DNA of 64,000 nucleotides from an uncultured Euryhalocaulis sp. Lineage in GTDB: Bacteria; Pseudomonadota; Alphaproteobacteria; Caulobacterales; Maricaulaceae. Positions 49,006 to 64,000 of the stretch are shown here, piece after piece (position 1 is the stretch's first letter; each line of letters begins with the position of its first letter). The stretch spans positions 1 to 64,000 of the forward strand of contig CAJXKJ010000001.1 of the NCBI GenBank assembly GCA_913055605.1, given 5' to 3'. The notes under the pieces are model-generated. The model saw only the letters and a program-made list of their open reading frames with translations. It ran no database searches and had not been told where the DNA came from. A program made the translations under genes and the position numbers.

Positions 49006-49764
49006 TCAGGCGGGGATCCAGGACGTGTCGATGGCGAAATAGGCGTCGTTGAAACTGCTCGCCTCGCGCAGGCCTTTTTCGTTCAGCTCGATCAGCGAGC
49101 CCTTGCGCGTGATCAGGCCGTCCCGCTCCAGCTGGCGCAGGGTGCGGTTGGTGTGGACCTGGGTCAGGCCGACCAGATCGCCCAGCGTTTCCTGGTTCAG
49201 CGGCAGTTCGAAGACCGCCTCCCGGGACGAACTGGTGATCCGCAGGCGGGTAAGGATTTCCATGAAGACATGGGCCACGCGCTCGCGCGCCTTCATGCGG
49301 CTGATCGCCTTCATGCGCTCGATGATCACCATCTCGTCCACCATGCCGACTGCATAGAGCAGGGCCGACAGGCGGGAGGAGGAGTTGAACAGCTCGCACA
49401 GCGCCTGTTTCTCGAACGGGCACAGGACGCAGTCGGTGGCGCACACCGTGGTCGACAGCGCGTGCTTCAGCCCGATCTCCCGCGCGCCCACGATGTCGCC
49501 GGGATAGAACAGCTGGAACACCTGCCGGCGGCCGTCTCCGACGAGCTGGGAACTGTAGAGCCATCCCTTGCGCACGACATAGAGCGCATCCAGCCGGTCC
49601 CCCGCCTGGACGACGACGGATTTGCGCGACCAGTCCTCCGGCTTTTCCTCGAGCGCGCGCAGCAGGGCGCGGTCCTCGGGGTTCAGGTCAGCGTAATGTG
49701 CAAGTTTGGTCTCAAGACAGCTTTCGCTACCCGCAGTAGCCGCGGGCTCGCTCGGGCGATCCAT
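49006..49764 (-). CDS. Crp/Fnr-family transcription regulator
   Basis: A 252-residue regulator. Residues 45-165 form the cyclic-nucleotide-like sensor domain (VVVQAGDRLDALYVVRKGWL, FQLFYPGDIVGAREIGLKHA), residues 165-195 the dimer helix, and residues 195-240 the winged helix with the recognition region LNQETLGDLVGLTQVHTNRT. A cluster of cysteines (CATDCVLCPFEKQALC) lies inside the sensor domain and could take part in redox sensing, but the N-terminal Fnr iron-sulfur cysteines are not in their usual places. AAGGGAG precedes the ATG. Targets are unknown; panD and the hairpin region are divergent. Confidence 0.88.
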   Translation of the reverse strand: MDRPSEPAATAGSESCLETKLAHYADLNPEDRALLRALEEKPEDWSRKSVVVQAGDRLDALYVVRKGWLYSSQLVGDGRRQVFQLFYPGDIVGAREIGLKHALSTTVCATDCVLCPFEKQALCELFNSSSRLSALLYAVGMVDEMVIIERMKAISRMKARERVAHVFMEILTRLRITSSSREAVFELPLNQETLGDLVGLTQVHTNRTLRQLERDGLITRKGSLIELNEKGLREASSFNDAYFAIDTSWIPA

Positions 49765-49791
49765 CGTAACTCCCTTGAATTCCACCCAAAA

Positions 49792-49814
49792 CGGCGCGCG
49801 GACGGAGCGCGCCG
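49792..49814. other. Inverted repeat in the crp/fnr leader
   Basis: CGGCGCGC and GCGCGCCG form an 8-base stem around a 7-base loop, 28 bases upstream of the crp/fnr start. It could be an operator or a leader hairpin; no further support is seen. Confidence 0.35.
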
Positions 49815-49891
49815 GCCTCTCCGCGCTCCATGATCGGCAGGTTTTCAAAGATGTGAATTGATGGAAGTTAATTGGGGTTCCGGAAATATGC

Positions 49892-49922
49892 GCAAAATCC
49901 ACAGCGGCGAACGCTGTTTTGC
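49892..49922. other. Imperfect inverted repeat before panD
   Basis: GCAAA, a 4-base bulge, and ACAGCG pair with CGCTGT and TTTGC around the loop GCGAA. It lies 58 bases before the panD start in the region shared with the divergent crp/fnr gene, and has the form of a protein-binding dyad or a leader hairpin. Confidence 0.4.
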
Positions 49923-49980
49923 ATGAGCGAAAAACGCCACTATATAAGCCGCGTAAGGGCAAACCGCAGGGCGCGCACCA

Positions 49981-50346
49981 ATGCAGCTCACCATGATGAA
50001 AGCGAAGCTCCACCGGGCCGTGGTCACCCAGACCGACCCGGACTATGAGGGCTCCATCACGATCGACGCCGATCTTCTGGATCTGGTCGGGATTCTGCCG
50101 CACGAGCAGGTCGACGTGCTGAACATCAATACCGGCGGGCGGTTCACGACCTACGCCATTCCGGGGCCGCGCGGCGGCCGCGGGTTCGGCATCAACGGCG
50201 CGGCGGCGCGCCTGGCCCAGCCGGGCGACCGGATCATCGTGGTGGCCTATGCCCGGATGGAAGAGGCCGAGGCCCGCGCCCACACCCCGAAAGTGGCGGT
50301 GATGGACGAAGCCAACCGCCCGGTCTCCAAGCCCATCGCGGCCTAG
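49981..50346 (+). CDS. panD: Aspartate 1-decarboxylase (PanD)
   Basis: A 121-residue pyruvoyl enzyme that makes beta-alanine for pantothenate. The self-cleavage site is Gly-Ser in [20 protein letters not shown]; other conserved parts are [33 protein letters not shown] and [20 protein letters not shown]. The length is normal. It stands alone, divergent from crp/fnr and convergent with the VOC gene, sharing a CTAG at the stops. Confidence 0.95.
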
Positions 50347-50726
50347 GCCGGGTCTGCGGTGCCCACCGAGGGCGCCCCGAACGACAGGCCGTAGCCATTC
50401 ACGTCGCGAATGCCGAATTCGTGCGCGCCGTAATCGAAATCGTCCGGCGCGTAGATCACCTCCACCCTGTCCTTCACCGCCTCCCACAGGGCGTCGACCT
50501 GGGCGGCGGTCTCCAGCCCGATATAGACCTGTCCGGTGAAGGCCGGCCCCGTCCACGGCGCGTGGGCGTTCGGGGAGCTGAGCATGATCCGGCAATTGTC
50601 CCGGTGCACCGTGGAAAAGCCGGGCGACTGCATCAGGCATTCGAAGCCCAGAACGCCGGTATAAAACTGGACCGACGCGTCCATCCGGTCGGTCCAGAAA
50701 ATCGGCGTGAGGCCTTTGAATGTCAT
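50343..50726 (-). CDS. Glyoxalase/bleomycin-resistance (VOC) family protein
   Basis: A 127-residue VOC-fold protein: [20 protein letters not shown] with LGFE is the first half, and [20 protein letters not shown] and [14 protein letters not shown] the second. The metal ligands are not all obvious (no His in the first strand), so it may bind rather than convert its ligand. It is transcribed against panD. Confidence 0.82.
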
Positions 50727-50784
50727 GCGGCGAGCCTAGGGCGCGGCGCGGGGCCGCGCACGCAACATCGGCGTGATGGCCCGC

Positions 50785-51516
50785 CTATTGAAGGATCTCG
50801 ACCTCCACATTGACCTGCGCCTCGACCGTCAGCTGGCCGGGGGCGGTGGGGGTGGCGGCGAAGTCCGCCGATTCGGCGCGGGCGGACATCATCACCGGCT
50901 GCGGCCGGTAGCCCTGGATCTCGTTCACCGACAGGATGCGGCCGAGGCGGAAGCCGCCGGCCTCCGCATACAGGCGCGCGGTTTCCATGGCGTTCCGGAT
51001 CGCCTCGCGGCGGGCCTCGTCCATCGCCTCGCTGGAATCCTCGCGGTCGAACTGGACGTTGCCGACATTATTGGCGCCGGCCTCGACCAGCGCGTCGATG
51101 GCCGGGCCCAGCGCGTCCAGGTCGCGGACGATGACCGAGACATTGTTGTTGGCGCGGTAGGCGATGATGCGCGGGCCGGAATTGTCCGGGCCGCTCTGCG
51201 GCGCATAGACCGGGCTGACGGACAGGGACGAGGTCTGGATATCCCGCTCCGCCACGCCGGCCTGGCGCAGCTCGTCGAAGACTTTCTGCATCGCGGCGCT
51301 GTTCTGGCGCAGGGCGTCGGCGGCGTTGCCGGCCTGAGCCACGACGCCGGCGGTGATCGTCGCCATGTCCGGATCGATCAGGGAGTCCCCGGACCCGGTC
51401 AGCGTGATGGAGGGGATGCGCTCGGCCCCGCCGAATTGCTGGGCGGCGGCGGGCAGGGCGGTCATGGGCAGGGCGCAGACGGCGAGCGCGGCTGCGGCGA
51501 GGGCGGGTCTGAACAT
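50785..51516 (-). CDS. SIMPL (DUF541) periplasmic protein
   Basis: A 243-residue exported protein of the SIMPL family. The signal peptide ends ALPMTALPAAAQ. Conserved parts are ITLTGSGDSLIDPDMATITA, GVAERDIQTSSLSVSPVY, ARREAIRNAMETARLYAEAG and the C-terminal EAQVNVEVEIL strand. The family is linked to oxidative stress or outer-membrane assembly in different bacteria; the role is not clear. It stands alone. Confidence 0.9.
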   Translation of the reverse strand: MFRPALAAAALAVCALPMTALPAAAQQFGGAERIPSITLTGSGDSLIDPDMATITAGVVAQAGNAADALRQNSAAMQKVFDELRQAGVAERDIQTSSLSVSPVYAPQSGPDNSGPRIIAYRANNNVSVIVRDLDALGPAIDALVEAGANNVGNVQFDREDSSEAMDEARREAIRNAMETARLYAEAGGFRLGRILSVNEIQGYRPQPVMMSARAESADFAATPTAPGQLTVEAQVNVEVEILQ

Positions 51517-51646: not shown

Positions 51647-52147
51647 TCAGACCGCGCGCAGCTCGGCCCGCGCGATTTTCCAGACGCCGTCCCGTTTCAC
51701 GTAATCGGTCTCCAGCACGCGCCGGCCGGCGGCGCGCACCACGCCCTCGCCCTGCTGCCGCGCCATATCGACCAGCGGGCACCAGGGCTCCACCGGCGCT
51801 TCGGTGGCGACGCTTACCGCCAGCCGGGCGCTGGCCTGTGTCCGGCCGGGCTGGACCTCCAGGAACTCCGCGTCGGCTTCGGTGGTCACGCGGCGCACGG
51901 CGGGGTCGAAGGCGGCGTTCTGCGGCTCGGCGAACAATTCGGCCGCCGCGTCGTGGGCGCCCGCGTTCAGGCGCTGGACCAAGGCGGCCTGCAGGCCGCG
52001 CACGGCCTTTTCGTCCTCCAGCAGGGCCAGGCGTTCGGCCGCCGGGTCCGTGGCCGCGTGGGCCGCCGTGGCGGCGGTGAGCGGGGCGGCCAGGATCGCC
52101 CCGCCCTTCAGGAAGGCGCGGCGGGTGGATGCGGTCTGATCGGTCAT
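51647..52147 (-). CDS. Tat-exported NTF2/SnoaL-like protein
   Basis: A 166-residue protein with a twin-arginine signal (TRRAFLKGGAILAAPLT), a helix ERLALLEDEKAVRGLQAALV and a beta-rich cone-shaped domain ending YVKRDGVWKIARAELRAV, the typical last strands of the SnoaL/NTF2 fold. The fold serves both enzymes (isomerases, cyclases, hydratases) and binding proteins. Its gene starts 10 bases after the MoaF-like gene and closes the exported cluster. Export through Tat suggests a folded or cofactor-bound protein. Confidence 0.78.
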   Translation of the reverse strand: MTDQTASTRRAFLKGGAILAAPLTAATAAHAATDPAAERLALLEDEKAVRGLQAALVQRLNAGAHDAAAELFAEPQNAAFDPAVRRVTTEADAEFLEVQPGRTQASARLAVSVATEAPVEPWCPLVDMARQQGEGVVRAAGRRVLETDYVKRDGVWKIARAELRAV

Positions 52148-52157
52148 CGCAGCCCCC

Positions 52158-53891
52158 TCAGGTCTCGTTCGGGAAGTATTTGGCCAGATCGAACCGGCCG
52201 GCGTGACGGGCGATGGCGCCGACGGGGCTGAGGCTCAGCCCGTTCGGGCCGCAATGCAGCCCGATGCCGCAATCGTGCATGGTCTTCAGATTGACCAGCA
52301 GCGTGCCCAGCGTGCCGTTGCACGCCTCCTCCAGCCAATAGGCCAGATACAGGCCGTCGCGGATTTTCACGTATTCGGACGGGCCGCTCCATTGCATGCC
52401 CATCGAACCGTTCGCGCCCGGGATGATCCAGGACAGCGAATAGGGCGTCGAATACAGGTGCATGGAGGTCAGGCCCGGGGAGTATTCCCAGGTGATCGCG
52501 CGGCCCAGCATCTCGTCTGTGTAGCGATGGCGGCGGTATTTGGGCGGCGTCAGGCCGTCCATCTCCACCACGCCGAACACCGACTTCACCTGGGATTCGT
52601 TGGCGATGTATTCGGAGCCGACCCAGCCGTGCAGCAACGTGGCCAGGCCCTCGTCCAGGTCCACGACCATGATCTGCGCGTCATGGTCCGGCGCGCCGCT
52701 CATCAGATGGCCGAACATGAAGACATTGGGGGAGGGCTCCCACGCCTTGTACTTCTCCGTCCGCCAGCCTCTTTCGCCGGCGGGGCGCCAGCTCAGCTGC
52801 TCGGCGCCGTCGAACCGGTATTCGACCGTGCGGCCATTGTCCCAGCGCATCGTCATCGTCTTGCCGGCCAGCGCGCCCGTCGAAGGCTGCTGGTTGCCGG
52901 CCATGGCGCTGGGCTCGAAGACATGGGTGTCCTCGGCGGCGACCCGGTCGACCTCCGCCGCGGTCAGGGTCTGGAAGGTGTTCATCGGGCGGTAGACGCG
53001 GCGGGCGCCCTTGCCCTCCGGCATCTCCGCGCCGTCATAGTCGTGGAACGCCTCGAAGCGCGCGATCTGGCCCAGCCATTCGCCCTCGCCGCGGAACAGG
53101 CGGTATTCCAGCGTGTCGGTCTCGTCGAAGCCTAGGCGCACGCCGACCTGCTGCGAGGCGGCGGGCTTGTAGACATAGAGCGTGAACGTGCCGGAGAATT
53201 CGCACTCGGTGCGCGAATAGACGAAGGTCTCGTCGTCGATCCAGACATAGTCGGCCGGGGCGCAGAACCCCATCTCGCCGCCGGTGCGGGAGAGCTCGAC
53301 GAAGTTCGTGTAGAAGGTCGAGGAATAGAAATCGAGCGTCTCCATCCCGGCGTCCTGCTTCCAGTAGAAGCCCTGACCCTCGACGCGGTTGGTGCGCCGG
53401 TGGCGCGCCTCGGGCGCCGCGCCGCCGGCGTCGACATAGCCGAACCAGACCTGGCGCTGGACCTCGCGATTATACTGGCCGGGCTCGAACCAGGGCTGTT
53501 CGCTGTTCAGCGCGTCGAAGCCGCTGAACCAGACTTCGAACACGGTGACCAGATTGGTGTCCCGGTCGATGATCAGGTTGAAGCCGCGCTGCGTGCCTGG
53601 AAGCATGTGGGTGACGAATAGGAGATGGCCCAGCTCCATCGCGCCGTAGCCCGCCTCCGCCGCGCCGGCGCCGTCCTCGGACAAAGACAGGCGGTTCGCG
53701 CTGGCGAAATCGTAGGCGAGCGTCGGCCCCTCGTCGGTGACGATGCGCATCGACTGGCCGGACAGCGCGCCCGACAGGGGCGAGGTATTGGCCGGCCCGT
53801 TCGCCGTGGCCTGCAGCGCGCGCGTGATCTGCGCCTCGCTGAGCGCGGTGTAGTCGATACGGTGCAGCGGCCGCGCCGGATAATTCGGCAT
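52158..53891 (-). CDS. Double-length MoaF-like protein
   Basis: A 577-residue protein with two related halves. Residues 35-300 (LSGALSGQSMRIVTDEGPTL, ELGHLLFVTHMLPGTQRGFN, LIIDRDTNLVTVFEVWFSGF) and 335-575 (STGALAGKTMTMRWDNGRTV, VFMFGHLMSGAPDHDAQIMV, VDLDEGLATLLHGWVGSEYI) both follow the MoaF pattern of two lipocalin-like sheets. MoaF was named for molybdenum-cofactor clusters but its role is not settled, and no mo-cofactor gene is near. There is no clear signal peptide (MPNYPARPLHRIDYTALSEA), unlike its neighbours. It lies in the cluster with the tannase and PQQ enzyme. Confidence 0.78.
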   Translation of the reverse strand: MPNYPARPLHRIDYTALSEAQITRALQATANGPANTSPLSGALSGQSMRIVTDEGPTLAYDFASANRLSLSEDGAGAAEAGYGAMELGHLLFVTHMLPGTQRGFNLIIDRDTNLVTVFEVWFSGFDALNSEQPWFEPGQYNREVQRQVWFGYVDAGGAAPEARHRRTNRVEGQGFYWKQDAGMETLDFYSSTFYTNFVELSRTGGEMGFCAPADYVWIDDETFVYSRTECEFSGTFTLYVYKPAASQQVGVRLGFDETDTLEYRLFRGEGEWLGQIARFEAFHDYDGAEMPEGKGARRVYRPMNTFQTLTAAEVDRVAAEDTHVFEPSAMAGNQQPSTGALAGKTMTMRWDNGRTVEYRFDGAEQLSWRPAGERGWRTEKYKAWEPSPNVFMFGHLMSGAPDHDAQIMVVDLDEGLATLLHGWVGSEYIANESQVKSVFGVVEMDGLTPPKYRRHRYTDEMLGRAITWEYSPGLTSMHLYSTPYSLSWIIPGANGSMGMQWSGPSEYVKIRDGLYLAYWLEEACNGTLGTLLVNLKTMHDCGIGLHCGPNGLSLSPVGAIARHAGRFDLAKYFPNET

Positions 53892-53990
53892 TGGATCCTC
53901 CCCTAAATTCCAGGATCGCCCGTCTTTCGCGGGTCCTCATTCATGCTAGCGGCGCGGTGCGCCGGTGTCTTGTTGCGCCGCGGCGCCGTC

Positions 53991-55886
53991 CTATGGCACA
54001 GGCATCCGGTAGGGCAGGAAGGTCGAGACCCGCTCCACCCAGGCGATCTTGCCGTCGACGATCTTGATCAGATTGGCCTGGCCGCGGGTGTAGGGGTAGG
54101 GCACCTCCTGCACGGTCGGCTCCCCGTCCGTCACGCGCTGTTCGGCGCCGCCGAACGGCAGGTCGGCCATCGTGAACTGGACCACCACGCCGCGCGCCTC
54201 ATCGACCAGGGATGTCTGGTCCTCATAGCCGCGGATGCTCTCGATAAAGCCGCCCGGGCCGGTCTTCAGCGCCTCGCAGGAGGCGTCCTCGCCATCCTCG
54301 CCGGCCTGCACCTGTCCGTTGGTCACGATGCGGCATTCCGGATCGAACTCCAGCTCGACCGAGCCGGCGCCGCTGACGGGCGAGGTGAGGAACTCGCCGG
54401 CGATTGCCCGCATCAGGCCGGGGCGGGTGCGCGAATCCTCCGGCAGCACGGTCGAGAAGATCGGATCGAAAGAATACGGGCCGGGCTCGGCCCAGGTCCC
54501 CGGATGTTCGCGGCGGGAGGCCAGCGTGTCGACCGCCGCCACCTTGCCGTCGCGCACCGACATCGACATGGCGAAATAGCCCGGCTGTCCGTGCTCCTCG
54601 ACCACGCTGAACCAGATCAGCTGTCCGCTTTCCGGATCGGTCAGGACCAGCGGCTCGCCGGTGACCGCGCTGGCGGTGCCCCAGATCGCGTCGCCGATCA
54701 TCCATTTCACGCCGTTCTCGGAGAAATGGACCTTGTCCGCCCAGGGCACGCCCGAGGGGTCCTGTTCCAGCATCCCGGCGATATAGGACTCGGCGACCGC
54801 CGTCAGGCAGGCCTCGTCGCACGGCGCGCCATCGGCCACGGGCGGCAGCTCGCCAATGTCCGCCGCCGGACCCGTGAACGGGTTGTGCATGGAGTAGGGG
54901 ACATAGGTGAAGGTGGCCTCGATCCGCTGGATTTCGCCGTCGCGCCACCCAGCCTCCGGATCGTCATTGCCGGGGATCGGGTTCAGCGGGCCGGGTTTGA
55001 TGCGGAAGGCCTCGATCAGCGTGATCGAGTTCGGCCATTTCAGCGCCGTGCGCATCGTGCGGCCGTCGTTCAGCAGATATTCGTCGAACCAGTTATTGTG
55101 GTCGAAGAAGCCGGTGGACACGACGACGCCCCGCTCGGTGTCGATCAGGGGATAGCGCCGCTCCCGGATCCGCTTGTTGATCCGGTACATGCCCAGGCGG
55201 AACTGCGCCTCGCAGCCCGGCGTGGTGGCGGCCGCGCCGAAGCCGTTGCCGGCCGCCGTGGTGCTGATGCCGTTTTCCAGCCGGCCGCAATCGGCGGCGA
55301 ATTCGGTGAAGGTCTGGCCGTTGTTCAGCTCCACCGTGTCGAAATAGCCGTCGGCGATGGCCATCAGGCGCTCGCGCGGCAGGCGCTGCTCTTCGGGCAG
55401 GACCTGATCCCATTCTGGATCGTGATCGGCGTCCGGGTCGCCGAACGGCTTGGGACCGTCGGGCAGGCGCACGACCACGGTCTCGACCTCCGTGATCTCC
55501 TGGTCCTCGACCTTGATCCGCATCGTGTAGAAGGCCGGGTTGCCCTGTTCGGTGACCACGCCGAACCGGGCGGCGTTGCCGGTCTCCGGGTCGGCGGCGC
55601 GCATCGCCTTTTCGCTGACCCCGTCGATGGTGCGCCACAGCCCGTCGCCGGGCGCCAGCACGACATTGTTCTCCGTGAACACCACGTCGTCGGCCAGCGG
55701 CGCGTCGCCGGGCCGCTGGGCGGCCAGCGCCGCCATATAGGCGTCGACGAAGCCCAGCAGGCAGTCGCGGTCGCAGCTGTCGTCGATCACGGCGCTGTCC
55801 ATGCCCGGCGCCTGGGCCAGAGCGGGCGCGGACAGCAGCGACAGCAGCGCGGCTGCCGCCCCGGCGCGTGTGGTGATGGCGGTCAT
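53991..55886 (-). CDS. Exported protein with two copies of an NTF2-like domain
   Basis: A 631-residue exported protein (signal ALLSLLSAPALAQ). Two segments match each other: residues 36-140 (DSCDRDCLLGFVDAYMAAL, FTENNVVLAPGDGLWRTIDG, GNPAFYTMRIKVEDQEITEV) and 340-450 (APCDEACLTAVAESYIAGML, FSENGVKWMIGDAIWGTASA, GQPGYFAMSMSVRDGKVAAV). Each repeat starts with a C-x3-C pair and resembles the SnoaL/NTF2 fold, then continues with a second similar region (FTYVPYSMHNPF, VRGYEDQTS). So the gene is a tandem duplication. I recognise no named function. It is 55 bases downstream of the PQQ dehydrogenase. Confidence 0.8.
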   Translation of the reverse strand: MTAITTRAGAAAALLSLLSAPALAQAPGMDSAVIDDSCDRDCLLGFVDAYMAALAAQRPGDAPLADDVVFTENNVVLAPGDGLWRTIDGVSEKAMRAADPETGNAARFGVVTEQGNPAFYTMRIKVEDQEITEVETVVVRLPDGPKPFGDPDADHDPEWDQVLPEEQRLPRERLMAIADGYFDTVELNNGQTFTEFAADCGRLENGISTTAAGNGFGAAATTPGCEAQFRLGMYRINKRIRERRYPLIDTERGVVVSTGFFDHNNWFDEYLLNDGRTMRTALKWPNSITLIEAFRIKPGPLNPIPGNDDPEAGWRDGEIQRIEATFTYVPYSMHNPFTGPAADIGELPPVADGAPCDEACLTAVAESYIAGMLEQDPSGVPWADKVHFSENGVKWMIGDAIWGTASAVTGEPLVLTDPESGQLIWFSVVEEHGQPGYFAMSMSVRDGKVAAVDTLASRREHPGTWAEPGPYSFDPIFSTVLPEDSRTRPGLMRAIAGEFLTSPVSGAGSVELEFDPECRIVTNGQVQAGEDGEDASCEALKTGPGGFIESIRGYEDQTSLVDEARGVVVQFTMADLPFGGAEQRVTDGEPTVQEVPYPYTRGQANLIKIVDGKIAWVERVSTFLPYRMPVP

Positions 55887-55941
55887 GGTCGTCCTCCCCG
55901 GCCGGCGGGTCTGACGCCCGCCGTCCCTGCGATGATTGATG

Positions 55942-58281
55942 TCAGTGCCCCGTTCCGGAGGGCTCGGACGCCGGTTGCGGCGGGTTCGCCGCGTCCGGCG
56001 CCATTCCGGTCGCCTGGGCGTCGTAAGCGGTGTGCGCCAGGTCGATCAGATAGGCGCGGATCGCCTCGGTCTGGTCTTCGTCCAGCACGTCGTCCCATTG
56101 CGGCATGCCCTGCGGGCGCAGCGCGCCGTCCAGCACCACCGCCTCGAACCCCTCCGGCGAATGCAGCAGGGCCGAGGCGCGCAGATCGGGCGTCAGACCG
56201 TCCGGCCGGTTGGCGTGGCACAGCGCGCAGCTGCGGAACGCCGCGGCGCCCTCCGCGACCGTCTCGGCGTCCGCGAACTGCTCCGGCGGTTCGGGGATGT
56301 CCGTGGCCACCTGCGGCAGCTCGTCGGGAAGGGGCGTCTCGCCGCCGCCGAGGCGGAAGACCAGGATGCGATTGGCGTTGCCGTAGGTGACCGCCGCGCT
56401 GGTCGGGTGCGGGGCGAACCAGCCGCCGCCGCCCCAGCCGGCCTGAACCGCCACATATTGCACGCCGTCCACCGCATAGGTCATTGGGGCGGCCATGATC
56501 GAGGTGCCGACATGGATGTCGAGCAGCTGCTCGCCGGTCTCGGCGTCAAAGGCGTACAGGTGCCCGGTGTCGGCGCCCTGAAAGACCAGGCCGCCGCCGG
56601 TGGCCAGCACGCCGGCGCGGTCGTACCAGCCGACGCTGTCCTGTCGCCACACTTCCTCGCCGGTGATCGGATCGAACGCCTTCAGCGTCGCGCCCGGCGG
56701 CTCGGCGCCTTGCTCCACGGCGCCGCGCAGGGCGTCGCCCATCGGGCCGGGTACGGAGTCCGGATCTTCCAGCATCTGGTCGCCGAACATCACATTGTGG
56801 CCGGCGTTCGCCTGTTTCGGGCGATAGACGTGACCCTCGGTCAGGTCGCCGATGATGAAGCCAGCCTCGATGGCCGGGATATAGACCAGGCCCGTGTCGG
56901 GGCTGTAGGCCATCGGGTGCCAGTTGTGGCCGCCCATGGCGGACGGCTCCACGTATTTCGGCGCGTCCTTGTAATCGACCAGATCGGTGTTGATGCGCGG
57001 CCGCCCGGTCTCCAGGTCGACGCCGTCGGCCCAGTTCACCTTCACGAACGGATCGGCGGACAGCAGCTCGCCCGTGGCGCGGTCGAGGATATAGAAAAAG
57101 CCGTTCTTCGGCGCCTGCATCAGCACCTGACGGACTTCGACGCCGTTTTCTCCTGGCCACTCGATGTCGGCCATGATCATCGGCTGGACGGCGGTATAGT
57201 CCCAGCTCTCGCGCGGCGTCTCCTGATAGTACCAGACCAGCTCCCCGGTATCGGGATTGATGGCGAGGATGGAGCACAGGAACAGATTGTCGCCGCCGGA
57301 CGGGCTGCGATCGTGCCAGTTGAACAGCGCCGCGTTGCCGGTGCCGACATAAAGCAGGTTCAGCTCGGGGTCGTAGGCGAGGCCGTTCCACGGCGTGCCG
57401 CCGCCGCCGACATCCCAGCGGCTGTCCGGGTCCCAGGTCTCCAGCGCCATGTCCAGCTCGGGATGTTCCTGCGGCCCTTCGTCCGGGTCGCGCGGCACCA
57501 CGAAGAAGCGCCAGCGGAACTCGCCGGTCACCCGGTCATAGGCGGAGACATAACCGCGCGCGTCATAGTCCGCGCCGGCGTTTCCGATCACCACCACGTC
57601 GCCGGCCACTTCCGGCGCGCCGGAGGAGGTGTAGGCGCGGTCCTTGTCGTAATCGAGCGTGTCCTGCTCCCACACGACCTCGCCGGTGGCCGCGTCCAGG
57701 CCGAACAGCCGCCCGTCCAGCGCGCCGACATAGACCATGCCGCCATACACGGCGACGCCGCGATTGACCTCGTCGCAGCACGTATAGCGGTTCACCTGGC
57801 CGTCGCTCTTCGGATCGAAGGCCCAGAATTCCTCGCCCGTCGCGGCGTCCAGCGCATAGACCCGGCCCGTCGTGCCGGCGGCGTACATCACCCCGTCGAT
57901 CACCACCGGCGTGGCTTCCTGCCCCCGCGTGGTGCCCATCTGGTATTCCCAGGCGAAGCCGAGGTCCGAGACATTGTCCCGGTTGATGTCGTCCAGCGGG
58001 GAGAAATGCGTCTTGCCCTGGCTGCGGCCGGAGGTGAGCCAGTTTTCCGGCTCGGAATCCGCGTTCAGCAGGCGGTCGAAATCGACGTTCCCGAATTGGC
58101 GCTCTCCGGCCTCCGGCGCGGCGGCTTCGGCGTCTATTCCGGCCGCCGGCGCTTCCGCGACGTCCGGCGTTTCCGCCGGGGCCTGGGCTTCGCTGGCGCC
58201 GGGCGCCTCGCTCTGTCCGCAGGCGGTCAGCAGGGCCAATGCGATGAATACGGCCGCCGCGCGGCCTTCCGGTCCGGTCAT
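55942..58281 (-). CDS. PQQ-dependent alcohol dehydrogenase with C-terminal cytochrome c (lipoprotein)
   Basis: A 779-residue quinohemoprotein. A lipobox-like LALLTAC ends the signal, and an Ala/Pro/Glu-rich linker follows. Residues 90-620 form the eight-bladed propeller, with the vicinal disulfide cysteines in RYTCCDEVNRG and the propeller motifs AINPDTGELVWYYQETPRES and AFDPITGEEVWRQDSVGWY. The C-terminal domain carries the heme-c site SCALCHANRPDG and an axial Met in GMPQWDDVL. Electrons from alcohol oxidation would pass through the heme to the respiratory chain. The start at 58281 follows GGGGAG. No PQQ synthesis gene is in the window. Confidence 0.93.
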   Translation of the reverse strand: MTGPEGRAAAVFIALALLTACGQSEAPGASEAQAPAETPDVAEAPAAGIDAEAAAPEAGERQFGNVDFDRLLNADSEPENWLTSGRSQGKTHFSPLDDINRDNVSDLGFAWEYQMGTTRGQEATPVVIDGVMYAAGTTGRVYALDAATGEEFWAFDPKSDGQVNRYTCCDEVNRGVAVYGGMVYVGALDGRLFGLDAATGEVVWEQDTLDYDKDRAYTSSGAPEVAGDVVVIGNAGADYDARGYVSAYDRVTGEFRWRFFVVPRDPDEGPQEHPELDMALETWDPDSRWDVGGGGTPWNGLAYDPELNLLYVGTGNAALFNWHDRSPSGGDNLFLCSILAINPDTGELVWYYQETPRESWDYTAVQPMIMADIEWPGENGVEVRQVLMQAPKNGFFYILDRATGELLSADPFVKVNWADGVDLETGRPRINTDLVDYKDAPKYVEPSAMGGHNWHPMAYSPDTGLVYIPAIEAGFIIGDLTEGHVYRPKQANAGHNVMFGDQMLEDPDSVPGPMGDALRGAVEQGAEPPGATLKAFDPITGEEVWRQDSVGWYDRAGVLATGGGLVFQGADTGHLYAFDAETGEQLLDIHVGTSIMAAPMTYAVDGVQYVAVQAGWGGGGWFAPHPTSAAVTYGNANRILVFRLGGGETPLPDELPQVATDIPEPPEQFADAETVAEGAAAFRSCALCHANRPDGLTPDLRASALLHSPEGFEAVVLDGALRPQGMPQWDDVLDEDQTEAIRAYLIDLAHTAYDAQATGMAPDAANPPQPASEPSGTGH

Positions 58282-58392
58282 TCCGCTCCCCTTCGCCGCC
58301 ATGCGGCGGTCTTTCCCGTTAGGCATTTATCCCAGCCGCCCCGCGCGGCGGCAACCGGGCATAAGGCCCCGATCAGGCCCAATCAGGCCCGA

Positions 58393-59928
58393 TCAGGGCG
58401 CGCGGCACTCGAAACTGCCCGCGTCCTCCACGTCGCCGCCGGTATAATGGGCGTATTCCGGATAGGCGCAGAGCGGGCGGGACCGGCCGGGGAAGGCGTT
58501 CCCCGTGCTGATAACCCGCTCCGGCGCCTCGCCATTCTCCACCCAGTCGACGATGGCGGAGACCATGTCGAACCGGTCCAGCGTCGCCGAGCCGCCCGCG
58601 CAATGGCCCATGCCGGGCACCAGGAACAGGCGGGCGAAATCCTGCACCGCCGCCTCGCCGCCGTTCACCTCGGCCAGCTGCTCGTAATAGCGCCGTGTCT
58701 CGTCGGCGGAGAACCAGGGGTCGGCCATGCCGTGATAGAAAATCAGCTTGGAGCCCTCGTCGGCGAACGTGCTGAGATTGGGCGACAGGCTGTCGCCGAT
58801 GCGGCCGAACACGTCGGCCTCCACCGCCGCTGCCGCTGCGTCCACGTCGAAGCCGCCTTCGGTCTGCTGCGCCTGAACGGGGCTGGACCCGCCGCTCTGC
58901 AGGATGCCGGGCAGGCCCATGCCGGAATCGTTCAGGCCCGGATCCCACGGAAAGGCTGGATAGACCTGGTCCCCGCGCGAATTCACCGGGCCGCGGAAGG
59001 CGTTCTCCAGCCCCGCGACCTGGCCCTCGGTCAGGCAGGCCTCGGTCTTGGCCCCAGTGCAGGTCAGGTCCGCCGGCGCGAAATCGCAGGACCTTGTGTT
59101 GAAGATCAGCCCGTCCTCCGCCCCGTCATCGGCGTCGCAGGCGGCCAGCAGCGAATTCACGACCAGAGCCTTGTCGCCGTCGGACAACAGGCTCGCCGGG
59201 CCGTCCGGCGCGTATTCGGCGAAGGCGGCGTTGATATAGGCCAGCGTCATGTTGGAATGGCCGGTGCGCATCGCCGGCGCGCCGGACACGATGCCGTCGA
59301 AATACAGCGGATAGCGCTGGGACATGATCATCCCTTCGCGCCCGCCGGTGGAGCAGCCGACATAATAGGAATGGTCCGCCGGCTGGCCGTAATGCGCCGC
59401 TACCATGGCCTTGGCGATCGGCGCCATCTTGCCGTTGGAGGCGTACTGGAAATCCAGCGCCGCCTGCTGATCCTCCATGAAGGTCGCGTCGAAGCCGCCC
59501 GCGGCCTGGTGGCCCGTATCGGTGGCGATCACCGCGAAGCCCCGGTTCAGGGCCGGGTCGGCGCCCGCCGCGGCGCCCCCGACCGGCATGCCGACGCTGC
59601 CGTTCAGCCCGCCGCCGCCCTGCATCAGGAAACGGCCGTTCCATTCTTGGGGCAGGGCCAGGGCGAAGCGCGTGCCGTACTCCACGCCGTTCACGCCGGT
59701 GCGCCGGTCGACAATCCCCTCCACCCGGCAATGCGCGGGAACGGACATCGGCGGGGCGCCCGGGGGGCCGCCGGCGACCTCTCCGGCCTCGACCATCTGC
59801 GCCGACTCCACCGCCATGTCGTGGCCATCATAGCTAAAGGATTCCAGGGCGCCGCAGCTCTGCGCCAGGGCCGCGCCGGCCCAGGGCAGCATCACCGTAG
59901 ACAGCGCGAGCGTCTTGATCGTCTTCAT
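58393..59928 (-). CDS. Tannase/feruloyl-esterase family secreted hydrolase
   Basis: A 511-residue exported serine esterase of the tannase family, which cuts galloyl, feruloyl or related aromatic esters. The signal peptide ends MLPWAGAALAQ. The family's CS-D-HC arrangement is complete: Ser in HSYYVGCSTGGREGM with its flanking Cys, Asp in FYHGMADPWFSADE and His in FLVPGMGHCAGG with its flanking Cys, so the catalytic disulfide is predicted. A calcium-binding-type Asp-rich loop (ACDADDGAEDGLI) is also seen, as in fungal and bacterial feruloyl esterases. GGGGAGGAC precedes the ATG. It is the first gene of the exported cluster. Confidence 0.92.
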   Translation of the reverse strand: MKTIKTLALSTVMLPWAGAALAQSCGALESFSYDGHDMAVESAQMVEAGEVAGGPPGAPPMSVPAHCRVEGIVDRRTGVNGVEYGTRFALALPQEWNGRFLMQGGGGLNGSVGMPVGGAAAGADPALNRGFAVIATDTGHQAAGGFDATFMEDQQAALDFQYASNGKMAPIAKAMVAAHYGQPADHSYYVGCSTGGREGMIMSQRYPLYFDGIVSGAPAMRTGHSNMTLAYINAAFAEYAPDGPASLLSDGDKALVVNSLLAACDADDGAEDGLIFNTRSCDFAPADLTCTGAKTEACLTEGQVAGLENAFRGPVNSRGDQVYPAFPWDPGLNDSGMGLPGILQSGGSSPVQAQQTEGGFDVDAAAAAVEADVFGRIGDSLSPNLSTFADEGSKLIFYHGMADPWFSADETRRYYEQLAEVNGGEAAVQDFARLFLVPGMGHCAGGSATLDRFDMVSAIVDWVENGEAPERVISTGNAFPGRSRPLCAYPEYAHYTGGDVEDAGSFECRAP

Positions 59929-60120
59929 GAATGTCCTCCCCGTTCGCGGGTCGGCCGTCTGACGCGGCTCTGCCCGGTTCCGGCCGCAACGGTACCGGAG
60001 CGGCGCGCCGCCGCAAAGCGAAGGCGAGGGGAGGCCCCTCAGCATTTCCTTATCTTCCGCTCAGGACTTCCGGCCGGCTTCGCGCCATCCCGTCGCCATG
60101 GACGCAACGGGATAACGCCG

Positions 60121-60663
60121 ATGACGACGGTTCAGGGGACCAATTTTTTCAATCCGTGGCGGGTCGCGGGCTGGGGGCTCGCCGCCGCCCTGCTGGCGAC
60201 GCCGGCCATTGCGGGCTGGCCGTGGGAATTCCGCGGCTTTGTGCTGGTGGGCGTGGTGCTGACGGTGATCGGCGTGACGATGGAGCTGGGTCTGCGCCAT
60301 GCGCGCGACCTGACGCACAAGGCGGGCTTCACGATTGCGGTGGCGACCTGGTTCTTCCTGTTATGGTCGGGCTTCATCGGGGCGGCCGACGATTACGACG
60401 CCAATCTTTTCTATCTGGTCGAGATCGCCATCGCCCTCTCGGGCGCCGTCGGCGCGAAATTCCGCCCGGACGGCATGGCCCGCGCGATGGTTTTCACGGC
60501 GCTTTTTCAGCTCGCCGTGGCGGCCGGCAGCTATCGGGCGGGCTGGCAGTTCGCCGGGGAGCGGGAGCCCCTGGCACAGCTCATCCTCAATAGCGGCCTG
60601 ATCGTCCCCTGGGCGCTGGCGGGCGTCCTGTTCCACCGCACCGCCCGGCGCAGCAAGGGCTGA
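60121..60663 (+). CDS. Integral membrane protein of unknown function
   Basis: A 180-residue inner-membrane protein with five or six helices (about residues 16-34, 39-55, 68-84, 95-115, 120-140 and 155-172). The short N-terminus TTVQGTNFFNPWRVAGWGLA precedes the first helix. No residue pattern of a known transporter or enzyme is seen. It is divergent from the tannase gene with 192 bases between, and is convergent with the G8 gene across a terminator. Confidence 0.72.
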   Translation: MTTVQGTNFFNPWRVAGWGLAAALLATPAIAGWPWEFRGFVLVGVVLTVIGVTMELGLRHARDLTHKAGFTIAVATWFFLLWSGFIGAADDYDANLFYLVEIAIALSGAVGAKFRPDGMARAMVFTALFQLAVAAGSYRAGWQFAGEREPLAQLILNSGLIVPWALAGVLFHRTARRSKG

Positions 60664-60676
60664 CCGGAAAAAGAAA

Positions 60677-60700
60677 AGCCCCCGGCATGCGCCGGGGGCT
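60677..60700. terminator. Bidirectional terminator between the membrane protein and the G8 gene
   Basis: A perfect 10-base stem, AGCCCCCGGC and GCCGGGGGCT, closes on ATGC. On the minus strand it is followed by TTTTCTTTTTCC and serves the G8 gene; on the plus strand it lies 14 bases after the membrane-protein stop, with A-rich sequence before it. A nearly identical element follows the second G8 gene. Confidence 0.85.
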
Positions 60701-60723
60701 GATCTCATTCAGCGCGGTTGACC

Positions 60724-63285
60724 CTACCGGCTGACGGTGACGCTGGTTCCGCGGAAACCGCCGGGACCGGCGGTGTCGGGCGGGGCCGTATTATCGCCGG
60801 CGTCGGCGACCACGAGCTTCACCCACAGGGATTCGTCATCCTTGTAGTAGGAAGTCTCGCTGGCGTCCTTCAGCGCGGCCAGGCTGGCCTGTTCCGCCCC
60901 TTCGGCGGCGGTGCTGAAGCCCGGCAGTTCGAAAACGACCGATGAGCCGCCGTCCATGTCCGCCAGGGTCAGCGGCAGGGATTCCCGGGCCGTGTCGATC
61001 TTGACCTCGGCGCCGCTGCGGATCGTGGTCTGGCCGCGGAACTCGAACTCCCTGCCGTTGCGGCTGAGCACGACCGGATCGGCCTCGGGGTCGGCGCCGA
61101 AGCCGAAACCCGGCCCCAGGCTGAGGCGGCCGAAATCGCCCTGGCACACCGCGGCGTTCCAGGACGGCCGGACCTCGCAGGCTTCGTCGTCGGACGCGAT
61201 CCCGTTGTCGATGACGATATAGGAATCGGGGACGCCGCTGACCGAGCCGTCCAGGTCATGGATGGCGGCGGTCGCATAGGCGGCGCTGCCCCCGAAATCG
61301 TTGGCCCATTTTTCAAGCCGTTCGGGGAAGTGCACCGGCTTGGCGTTGATGAATGTCGCGCCCTGAACCGAGTTTTCGACGCTCATCCCGAAGCTGGTGT
61401 ACAGCAGGTACGAAATCGCGCCCGCCTCGCGCGTGTCGTTGTCCGCATAGTTCACGAAGGTCGTGTCCACGATGTCGTGGCGGTAGTCGTAATACTCATA
61501 GCCGCGGATCGGGAAATCCGTGACGGCTTTCGGCTGGCTGCGGCCGTAAGCAATTTCGGCTTCGGTCGTGGGGTTGCCGATATTGTCGGTCTCACCCACG
61601 AACAGCGAGTCGATGACCCGGGACGTAAATTCGTACCGGCCGAACTGGCCGGAGGCGAAGGTGAAGCCGATCGCGTTGTCGGCGATCTTCAGGTTACGGA
61701 ACTCCTTCAGCTCGCCGCGGCCCCAGATGGCGCCGTTCCGGTTCTTGTAGGCGGTGAAATCCTCGATCACCCCGATCACGGGCTCGCTGTCGTCGTTGCC
61801 CGGCTCGGTATAGCCGGTGTGGGAGCTGCCGGTGACGCCGAACGTGCCGTCGGGTCCGGCGTTCCGGTCGAACATCAGGCCATCGAAGTTGGAGTGGGCG
61901 ACATTGCCCCGGAACTCGCCGAGCGGCATGCGGCGCGGGTATGTGTTCGCGCTGATCTCCGTGCCTTCGAAGGCGCCCGTCGGGTGCTCCGCCAGCGAAA
62001 TCCAGAACCCGGTCGAGTCCGACCCCGCGGCCACGTTGCCGATGTAGTCGTTGGAGGGGTTGGTGATCCAGAACGTCGACACCGTGTTGTCGGAAGGAAG
62101 CAGGACGTCCTCGGACTGCTGGCCTTGCCCGCCGGGATCCGACGGAATCCCGAGATTTGTGGGCACGCAATCCTTGGTCGGGTGGCACTTGGTCTGGATG
62201 CCCAGATTACGAACGATCTGGTTCCCCGTCTCGATGCCGTCTTCCATGAAGTAGCAATGGCCGACGGTGTTGTAGGCCACGTTGTTCTCCACGCGCAGAT
62301 TGTGCGTGCCGTGCACCGTGACGCAGCGATTATAGGTGTCGTGGATCGCGGCGTTCTTGATGTACTGCCCCGCCACATCGTCGTTGATGTGCCAGTGGAT
62401 GGGGTAGCGGGCGAGCTCCAGATGCTGGCCCATGCGGGTCAGCTCGACGCCGGACACCTGCATCCGGGATCCGGCCATCGCCATGATGTGCCCGCCGAAA
62501 TAGGTCTCTTCGGCGTCCGCGGAGGCTTGGACCTTGATGTTGCGCGTCAGCAGGCCGACTTCGCCGCGCTCGTCGACGTCGTAGGTGATCTCGCCGAAAT
62601 GCATGTATTCCAGCGGTGCATCCAGCGTGATCGCATCGCCGTCGATCGCCGCGATATGCCGGCGCTCCGCCTGCCGCGGATTGAAGTCGGTGGAGGCCAG
62701 GACGATTTCGTCGCCCACGCGCCAGCCGCTGGCGTCGAGCACCTGGATGCTGTCCGCGCCGGCCTCCGCCGTTTCGGCCAGCTTGGTCCAGGAATTCTCC
62801 CGGTCGCCGTGCAGGCTCAGTTCGCCGCCCACCATCAGGACGCCCCGGTCGCCCATGCCGTTGATATTCTCGCCCGGCACATTGTCCGTCAGGGTGATCG
62901 TCGCGTTGCGCGTGTGCGGATTGGCCTGGGTCCCGGCCTGCAGCGCCCCGCGCACTAGAACCCACTCGGTGGTGAGTTCGACGTCCGCGTCATCGGAAAA
63001 GCTGAGCGTGCCGTCCAGATTGATCCCGTGCAGCGCCGCCGTGTCGACGTCGAGGACGACGTCCATGCCTTCGCCAATGGTGACCGTGTCGCCATCCGCC
63101 GGGACGGTCCCGCCCCAGGTCGATGCATCGGACCACAGTCCGCCCGCGACAGCCGAAGGGCCGTGCCCCTGTGCGCCGGCGGTCATGTCGTGATCGGCAT
63201 GCTCCTGCGCGTATGCGCCGCCGCCGACGGCGAAACAGGCTGGAACAAATACTGAAAGAAGCCGCGCGCGGTTGGTTGCTCGCAT
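60724..63285 (-). CDS. Secreted G8-domain beta-helix protein (CEMIP/TMEM2-like)
   Basis: An 853-residue exported protein. The signal peptide ends AVGGGAYAQ. Residues 47-170 form a G8 domain (GGLWSDASTWGGTVPADGDT, then VTIGEGMDVVLDVDTAAL), followed by a right-handed parallel beta-helix with the highly conserved stretch YPIHWHINDDVAGQYIKNAA, NRCVTVHGTHNLRVENNVAY and GHCYFMEDGIETGNQIVRNL. This stretch is the hallmark of animal CEMIP and TMEM2, which depolymerise hyaluronan. The C-terminus has a small beta domain and ends TSVTVSR. A polysaccharide substrate is likely, the identity unknown. A second copy follows upstream. Confidence 0.87.
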   Translation of the reverse strand: MRATNRARLLSVFVPACFAVGGGAYAQEHADHDMTAGAQGHGPSAVAGGLWSDASTWGGTVPADGDTVTIGEGMDVVLDVDTAALHGINLDGTLSFSDDADVELTTEWVLVRGALQAGTQANPHTRNATITLTDNVPGENINGMGDRGVLMVGGELSLHGDRENSWTKLAETAEAGADSIQVLDASGWRVGDEIVLASTDFNPRQAERRHIAAIDGDAITLDAPLEYMHFGEITYDVDERGEVGLLTRNIKVQASADAEETYFGGHIMAMAGSRMQVSGVELTRMGQHLELARYPIHWHINDDVAGQYIKNAAIHDTYNRCVTVHGTHNLRVENNVAYNTVGHCYFMEDGIETGNQIVRNLGIQTKCHPTKDCVPTNLGIPSDPGGQGQQSEDVLLPSDNTVSTFWITNPSNDYIGNVAAGSDSTGFWISLAEHPTGAFEGTEISANTYPRRMPLGEFRGNVAHSNFDGLMFDRNAGPDGTFGVTGSSHTGYTEPGNDDSEPVIGVIEDFTAYKNRNGAIWGRGELKEFRNLKIADNAIGFTFASGQFGRYEFTSRVIDSLFVGETDNIGNPTTEAEIAYGRSQPKAVTDFPIRGYEYYDYRHDIVDTTFVNYADNDTREAGAISYLLYTSFGMSVENSVQGATFINAKPVHFPERLEKWANDFGGSAAYATAAIHDLDGSVSGVPDSYIVIDNGIASDDEACEVRPSWNAAVCQGDFGRLSLGPGFGFGADPEADPVVLSRNGREFEFRGQTTIRSGAEVKIDTARESLPLTLADMDGGSSVVFELPGFSTAAEGAEQASLAALKDASETSYYKDDESLWVKLVVADAGDNTAPPDTAGPGGFRGTSVTVSR

Positions 63286-63444
63286 GATGTCAAACCCTCC
63301 CAGGTTCCGGGATTATCGAATTCCCACTTTGATAGGCAGGATAAGGCGACGATCCGAGGTCAGGCAAGCATTGGAGGGTGCGACAACCCTGCGGCCTCGC
63401 CTGGACAGCCGCCCGCCGCGACGGGACTCGCGCGCCAACGAAAA

Positions 63445-63468
63445 AGCCCCCGGCTTGCGCCGGAGGCT
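63445..63468 (-). terminator. Terminator of the upstream G8 gene
   Basis: AGCCCCCGGC, loop TTGC and GCCGGAGGCT (one mismatch) lie 24 bases after the stop of the partial G8 gene on its strand, and are followed by TTTTTCG. The element is a near copy of the one at 60677-60700. Confidence 0.8.
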
Positions 63469-63492
63469 TATCTTCGCTTCGCAGCGCGGACC

Positions 63493-64000
63493 TTACCGGC
63501 TGACGGTCACGCCGTTCGGAATCGGCGCCCCGGTCTCCGGACCGCCGGGACCGAACGGGGCCGGCGGCGGGACATTGGCGTCCGCGACCACCAGTTTGAC
63601 CCACAGGGCCTCGTCATCCTTGTAGTAGGAGGTCTGGTTGGCCTCCCGCAGCGCATCCATGCTGGATGTCTCCGCGGCGTCGGCGGCGCTGGTGAATTCG
63701 GGAAGCTCCAAGATCACGAAAGACCCTTCGTCCATTTCCCGCAGGGAAACGGACAGCGTGTCCCGGGCCGTCTCGACGCGGAGCTCCGCGCCGCTGCCGA
63801 GCGTGGTTTCCCCGGTATATTCGAACCGCTTGCCGTCCCGCTGGAGTATGATCGGGTTGGTGATGGGGCCGGTCTGGAACCCGCTGAACTGACCGGAAAT
63901 GTTGAAGCGGCCCATATCGCCCGTGCAGATGGCGGCGTTCCAGGCCGCCTTGATTTCGCACGAGTTTTCGTCGGCCGCGATTCCGTTGTCGATGACGACA
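63493..64000 (-). CDS. Second G8/CEMIP-like protein, C-terminal part (runs off the window)
   Basis: The C-terminal 168 residues of a paralogue of the neighbouring G8 protein. The open frame reaches the window edge with VVIDNGIAADENSCEIKAAW and NAAICTGDMGRFN, matching IDNGIASDDEACEV and NAAVCQGDFGRL of the neighbour; later parts (LGSGAELRVETARDTLSVSL, NQTSYYKDDEALWVKLVVAD) match too, and both end GVTVSR or SVTVSR. The N-terminal G8 domain and the helix would lie beyond the edge. The two genes therefore form a tandem pair with 207 bases between them. Confidence 0.85.
   Translation of the reverse strand, partial: VVIDNGIAADENSCEIKAAWNAAICTGDMGRFNISGQFSGFQTGPITNPIILQRDGKRFEYTGETTLGSGAELRVETARDTLSVSLREMDEGSFVILELPEFTSAADAAETSSMDALREANQTSYYKDDEALWVKLVVADANVPPPAPFGPGGPETGAPIPNGVTVSR

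Follow-up and report, generated by a model that had tools for sequence, protein, structure and literature searches.

Human TMEM2 (CEMIP2), a cell-surface hyaluronidase, and its paralogue CEMIP (KIAA1199/HYBID) share a G8 domain, a right-handed β-helix and a domain X; in TMEM2, a lectin-like domain 1 is inserted after three coils of the helix and a lectin-like domain 2 is placed C-terminally. Both the enzyme status of these proteins and the location of their active site are openly disputed (PMC10206443, PMC10474455, PMC12254123). Bacterial relatives are found in databases as automatically annotated "G8-domain-containing proteins", which belong to the same family but are annotated by domain only. 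We analyzed such proteins in an uncultured Euryhalocaulis sp. (assembly GCA_913055605.1, contig CAJXKJ010000001.1), starting from a window that spans bases 1 to 64,000 of a 161,851-base contig (genome 3.16 Mb). A sequence-only reading of this window had recognized two adjacent exported CEMIP/TMEM2-like proteins at its right end, and had asked for the full second gene. Pfam matches and Sec-type signal peptides on both A and B (read by eye) uphold that recognition, and the genome supplies the second gene complete (878 aa, with the same family match). The array is in fact larger, consisting of four tandem genes (A–D), one complete and one cut inside the window; when the complete genome was searched with a profile, exactly these four and no further CEMIP/TMEM2-like gene were returned.

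Gene A, 60724–63285, minus strand: complete, 853 aa, predicted secreted CEMIP/TMEM2-like protein (Pfam, TMEM2 match, AlphaFold model, PDB comparison)
Gene B, 63493–64000 in the window, minus strand: 3′ end only, 168 codons
Gene B whole, contig 63493–66129: 878-codon open reading frame (ORF), with an ATG at codon 23 as the likelier start
Gene C, contig 66789–69503: tandem copy, same family
Gene D, contig 70677–73397: tandem copy, same family

The relationship to the animal proteins proved stronger than the letters alone had suggested. Gene A matches both family models above their curated cut-offs: CEMIP_beta-hel (PF24606) over residues 262–468 (E 8.6e-82; 274 bits against a cut-off of 27.3) and G8 (PF10162) over residues 56–170 (E 3.3e-26; 92 bits against 22.9). 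Searched against all solved structures using phmmer, its sole match was human TMEM2 (E 1.4e-85), and a profile built from 47 bacterial relatives recovers human TMEM2 at 497 bits (E 1e-147). Identity to TMEM2 is 34% across 717 aligned residues. An AlphaFold model of gene A (pLDDT 87, pTM 0.88) superimposes on the TMEM2 crystal structure (PDB 8c6i) with a Z-score of 39.3 (3.4 Å over 749 residues, 32% identity), far ahead of the next matches, which are alginate C5-epimerases at Z ~19, followed by tailspikes and polysaccharide lyases. These other β-helix matches span Z 15–19 and are mostly polysaccharide-active, although some are not enzymes. The mannuronan C5-epimerases AlgE4, AlgE6 and AlgG, like other β-helix polysaccharide lyases and hydrolases, have the right-handed β-helix in common with the array proteins at Z ~19, with ~12% identity and neither G8 nor domain X. 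The similarity observed to the β-helix uronate lyases and epimerases, chondroitinase B among them, is one of fold. The profile and structure matches to TMEM2 thus establish membership of the CEMIP/TMEM2 family, beyond a loose resemblance of fold.

The same comparisons define what the bacterial proteins retain. As in TMEM2, G8 provides the first coils of the β-helix and a domain X follows it (agreed by profile and structure match); in gene A, a signal peptide (residues ~1–26) precedes G8 (56–170), the β-helix core runs to ~720, and a domain-X-like β-sandwich extends to ~828, followed by a linker and a last strand. The bacterial profile covers the G8, β-helix and domain X regions of TMEM2 but skips the insert carrying a small sandwich and lectin-like domain 1: its alignment breaks off at construct residue 166, resumes at 340 and stops at residue 1050 of 1301, before lectin-like domain 2. 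Neither lectin-like domain of the animal members is therefore present in the bacterial proteins by this alignment, which also differ from TMEM2/CEMIP in having no transmembrane anchor, in carrying a Sec-type signal instead (export is probable from this feature) and in being encoded by tandem multi-copy genes. The bacterial proteins are members of the CEMIP/TMEM2 domain family with a reduced, non-animal architecture. Many family members show a His/Met-rich stretch immediately after the signal peptide (QEHADHDM, QDHDGHSM), which resembles copper- or zinc-binding tails.

Absence of the lectin-like domains bears on the proposal that these are true hyaluronidases or glycosaminoglycan lyases acting on animal or bacterial hyaluronan. 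The fold core and the conserved residues (below) are those of TMEM2, which favors such a role, but lectin-like domain 1, which is thought to bind sugar in TMEM2, is absent, and many hosts are free-living (deep-sea Croceibacterium, Thermaceae, other Deinococcota). We regard this proposal as improbable: hyaluronan is a possible substrate, but with the sugar-binding lectin-like domain missing and deep-sea and thermophilic bacteria among the hosts it is unlikely to be the main one.

The sequence-only reading had made conservation of catalytic residues known from CEMIP/TMEM2 a test of its proposal; that test does not apply as framed, because TMEM2 has no established catalytic residue and its reported activity-abolishing mutations all lie in lectin-like domain 1 (PMC10206443), the domain that the bacteria lack, such that R265, D273 and D286 are without counterpart here. 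Conservation across the remaining fold is extensive: 217 columns are at least 95% conserved in the 47 bacterial sequences, and 137 of these are identical in human TMEM2. A more stringent 11-row alignment, whose rows include human TMEM2 and very remote relatives (proteins from Vitreoscilla, Planctomyces and a Leisingera plasmid, a protein from the same order and divergent Deinococcota), reduces this to ten columns invariant in all 11 rows (E281, G286, R293, Y294, H297, H299, H325, G342, E348 and E352), with H266 and R248 likewise invariant wherever a row extends over them. Apart from the two glycines, the ten invariant columns hold charged, His or Tyr residues, eight in all, which fall within 72 positions and belong or lie close to the motifs RYPxHxH, VHGT and GHCFFLEDGIE; each of the eight reaches at least 98% conservation across the 47 aligned bacterial sequences. 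Their TMEM2 equivalents (numbered as construct index + 82, in agreement with the published loops 627–662 and 733–756) are E535, R546, Y547, H550, H552, H585, E608 and E612.

Proposed active-site stretch, gene A codons 281–352, 62230–62445, minus strand: assigned from residue conservation

In the AlphaFold model, predicted strands 296–299, 322–324 and 345–347 are spaced by 26 and 23 residues, one per coil; because these strands recur once per coil, H299, H325 and E348 plausibly stack on neighboring coils. We infer that E281, R293, Y294, H297, H299, H325, E348 and E352 form the likely active site, and the set resembles a metal site (an H-x-H pair with a further H and an E) or else an acid/base group.

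Export, the β-helix fold, a nearby TonB receptor gene and strong diversification together suggest degradation of a polymer outside the cell or in the periplasm. We consider it reasonably probable that the array encodes secreted β-helix enzymes, most likely polysaccharide depolymerases employing the eight-residue site. The protein comprises a continuous right-handed β-helix and domain X, with neither animal lectin-like domain; polymer would be cut at the eight residues, probably lying on neighboring coils; and products would be taken up via TonB-dependent receptors, one of which is encoded near the array. The equivalent residues would form the TMEM2 active site, lectin-like domain 1 being an animal addition for hyaluronan binding, and the four paralogues would probably differ in substrate; copy numbers of up to 12 per genome suit a set of diversified, substrate-specific enzymes. 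Enzyme activity itself, like the active-site assignment, metal use, substrate and uptake, we infer from fold, conservation and gene context.

Several points weigh against a depolymerase. The activity of TMEM2 is disputed, its purified ectodomain being inactive in one study (PMC10206443) whereas another reported that purified TMEM2 degrades hyaluronan by an intrinsic activity (PMC10474455), and the matter is described as open in a review (PMC12254123). The TMEM2 crystallographers assigned no active site, and found the middle of the helix covered by two loops (PMC10206443). Our literature search, which mostly covered open-access papers, yielded nothing on the function or activity of bacterial CEMIP/G8 proteins, and the passages retrieved from two reviews on microbial hyaluronidases mention no CEMIP homologue from bacteria. 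Lastly, no recurrent glycoside hydrolases or polysaccharide lyases appear among the 25 commonest Pfam families in each of two batches of gene neighbors (229 neighbors).

The inactive ectodomain preparation also lends itself to a different interpretation, in which the bacterial proteins are non-catalytic, polymer-binding or surface β-helices with an adhesin or matrix role; β-helices do act as binding surfaces, and some of the structural matches are not enzymes. Binding alone rarely demands that eight charged, His or Tyr residues within 72 positions stay unchanged from phylum to phylum and in human TMEM2 as well, and the report of intrinsic TMEM2 activity also speaks against this role, to which we assign a low likelihood. 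The retention of the β-helix core and the eight residues throughout a bacterial family that spans phyla, and again in human TMEM2, favors a catalytic core. The conserved residues name targets for mutation in the disputed human proteins, and the small bacterial proteins may be simpler to produce and to crystallize with ligand; were the depolymerase reading true, an unstudied bacterial polymer-degrading family would have been identified. More tentatively, and with the balance tilting against it, the lectin-less bacterial proteins may represent a minimal catalytic unit, with a metal-dependent H-x-H…H…E site new among β-helix polysaccharide enzymes, animal hyaluronan depolymerization having been built from a bacterial polysaccharide depolymerase plus a hyaluronan-binding lectin domain. 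In a bacteria–animal tree with one animal sequence (human TMEM2), TMEM2 is placed among core bacterial sequences, although long branches make this placement unsafe and a constraint holding the core bacteria together was not rejected (p-AU 0.184).

We next consider how the array arose. The sequence-only reading held that a gene had been copied along with its 3′ end, and intrinsic terminators with near-identical stems do stand behind both window genes.

Gene A intrinsic terminator, 60677–60700, minus strand: 10-pair stem, T-rich tail
Gene B intrinsic terminator, 63444–63469, minus strand

The gene A stem reads AGCCCCCGGC, from which the gene B copy differs by one base, and the string AAAGCCCCCGGCNNNCGCCGG occurs at only these two terminators in the 3.16 Mb genome; the end of gene C has a similar stem without a T run, and that of gene D a degenerate stem only. 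A shared core present only twice in the genome is in keeping with recent copying, in tandem, of a single gene and its terminator. The four genes are, however, only 61–71% identical pairwise (A versus B 71%), and gene B is closer to genes from metagenome-assembled genomes (MAGs) of Gammaproteobacteria and Acidobacteria (77–78%) than to A. The tree also contradicts recent copying, in that A, B and D each group with genes from other species in a supported clade of their own (SH-aLRT 98, 100 and 98, respectively; the clade placement of gene C is more weakly supported). At two other loci (L021 and L022), moreover, an A-clade gene comes immediately after a B-clade gene, with hairpins behind the B genes too. 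Recent duplication is accordingly ruled out by identities, tree and orthologous terminators, and we grant it next to no probability; the copying of gene and 3′ end stands for a very old event only. Since B-clade genes and some A-clade genes of other species carry terminator hairpins of their own, each gene-specific, the shared stem is best read as a feature that has accompanied each gene since an ancient duplication.

The surroundings of gene B are similarly old. A small, divergent gene for an exported cytochrome c lies between B and C (contig 66249–66731, L009:8250–8732), and such a gene is found beside and divergent from a B-clade gene at six loci (L009, L021, L022, L023, L027 and L042), the Gammaproteobacteria showing the B–A pair along with it. 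Because the B–A order and the divergent cytochrome c recur, we view cytochrome c–B–A as a module of old standing, passed from lineage to lineage. A redox partner would be unexpected for an enzyme of this class. Between C and D is a gene for an exported 326-aa protein with no Pfam match.

The array forms one end of a larger block.

Window part of a ~22 kb block without counterpart in the congener, 51647–64000 (whole block contig 51647 to ~73400)
MoaF-domain protein, 52158–53891, minus strand: same island
Exported 631-aa protein with no Pfam match, 53991–55886, minus strand: relatives lie near some other CEMIP-like genes
Pyrroloquinoline quinone (PQQ)-dependent alcohol dehydrogenase with C-terminal cytochrome c domain, 55942–58326, minus strand: same island
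Tannase/feruloyl-esterase-family exported protein, 58393–60045, minus strand: Pfam Tannase E 2.6e-107, same island

A tRNA-Met gene (contig 73448–73524) lies ~50 bases past the 5′ end of gene D, with its 3′ end facing the array. In the one congener sampled (G001), the same tRNA-Met (99% identical) stands ~3.4 kb from homologues of genes 49006–51516, and none of the genes of 51647–73397 is present at that place. As this congener has the same tRNA and flank but none of the block genes, the MoaF, PQQ dehydrogenase, tannase and CEMIP-like genes are extra DNA at tRNA-Met relative to it. The right flank of the block is likewise not conserved with the congener, and its right border is thus not fixed; no copy of the tRNA 3′ end was found that could serve as an att-like integration repeat, and the array genes are slightly AT-richer, with GC content at third codon positions (GC3) within 1.5 s.d. 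of the contig. A DUF6152-like gene and the TonB receptor gene adjoin the array (contig 74835–78556; receptor at ~76–78.5 kb). On a Croceibacterium atlanticum plasmid (NZ_CP011453.2, L100), two DUF6152 genes, a TonB receptor and a MarR regulator lie between two CEMIP-like genes.

The block's tannase and PQQ dehydrogenase, adjoining the array, raise the possibility that phenolic plant matter or lignin-related substrates (tannin-like, lignin–carbohydrate) are attacked as part of aromatic catabolism, rather than free polysaccharides. The same contig encodes a 4-oxalomesaconate tautomerase, a LigK-type aldolase and lignostilbene-type dioxygenases, and all 10 Sphingomonadaceae host genomes carry 3–8 RPE65/lignostilbene-type oxygenases (mean 4.8, against a mean of 1.0 in 139 non-hosts; Mann–Whitney 1e-7), a genome-level link that ignores phylogeny (5 genera) and may reflect lifestyle. 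Local clustering does not follow: across 29 genomes, RPE65 lies within 15 kb at 7 loci (4.0 expected, P 0.11) and LigB at 3 (3.8 expected), and neither an RPE65-type nor a LigB-type gene is present in two Deinococcota genomes that carry the family. An aromatic or gallate role drawn from neighbors (gallate dioxygenase, lignostilbene dioxygenase and tannase beside several copies) failed this clustering test, which allows for family copy numbers, and we hold a phenolic role to be unlikely. Contig 134518–148000 (L093, L094), with the tautomerase, LigK-type aldolase, and LigB-type and lignostilbene-type dioxygenases, resembles a region for 4,5-cleavage of gallate/protocatechuate.

The family has a patchy and horizontal distribution. 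It is absent from the other 36 genomes of the same family-level group. Among 289 genomes of the class, three have it at E 0.001, and two of these exceed the curated cut-off; it is found in 10 of 149 genomes of one Sphingomonadaceae group and in 39 of 111 Deinococcota, about a third of those sampled. Hosts include Croceibacterium from deep-sea sediment as well as Thermaceae and other Deinococcota, and the best of the C. atlanticum plasmid copies (e.g., WP_053833711) is ~62% identical. Across 29 genomes we counted 113 copies, with a maximum of 12 per genome (in small Alphaproteobacteria genomes). Many CEMIP-like copies lie at MAG contig ends (G354, G362 and others), where copy numbers are uncertain; repeated genes break assemblies, so copies at contig ends are to be expected. 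In Erythrobacter cryptus and E. tepidarius (L069/L079:9818–12652), the gene falls into two separate ORFs of 560 and 371 aa and has perhaps decayed. Distant G8 proteins of Leisingera and of a further genome (G044) match over their N-terminal half alone. β-Helix lyases often sit in exopolysaccharide clusters, and on a Leisingera sp. M527 plasmid (L103) one such distant G8 protein is encoded among glycosyltransferases, a sulfotransferase and an O-antigen ligase, which hints at a polysaccharide substrate.

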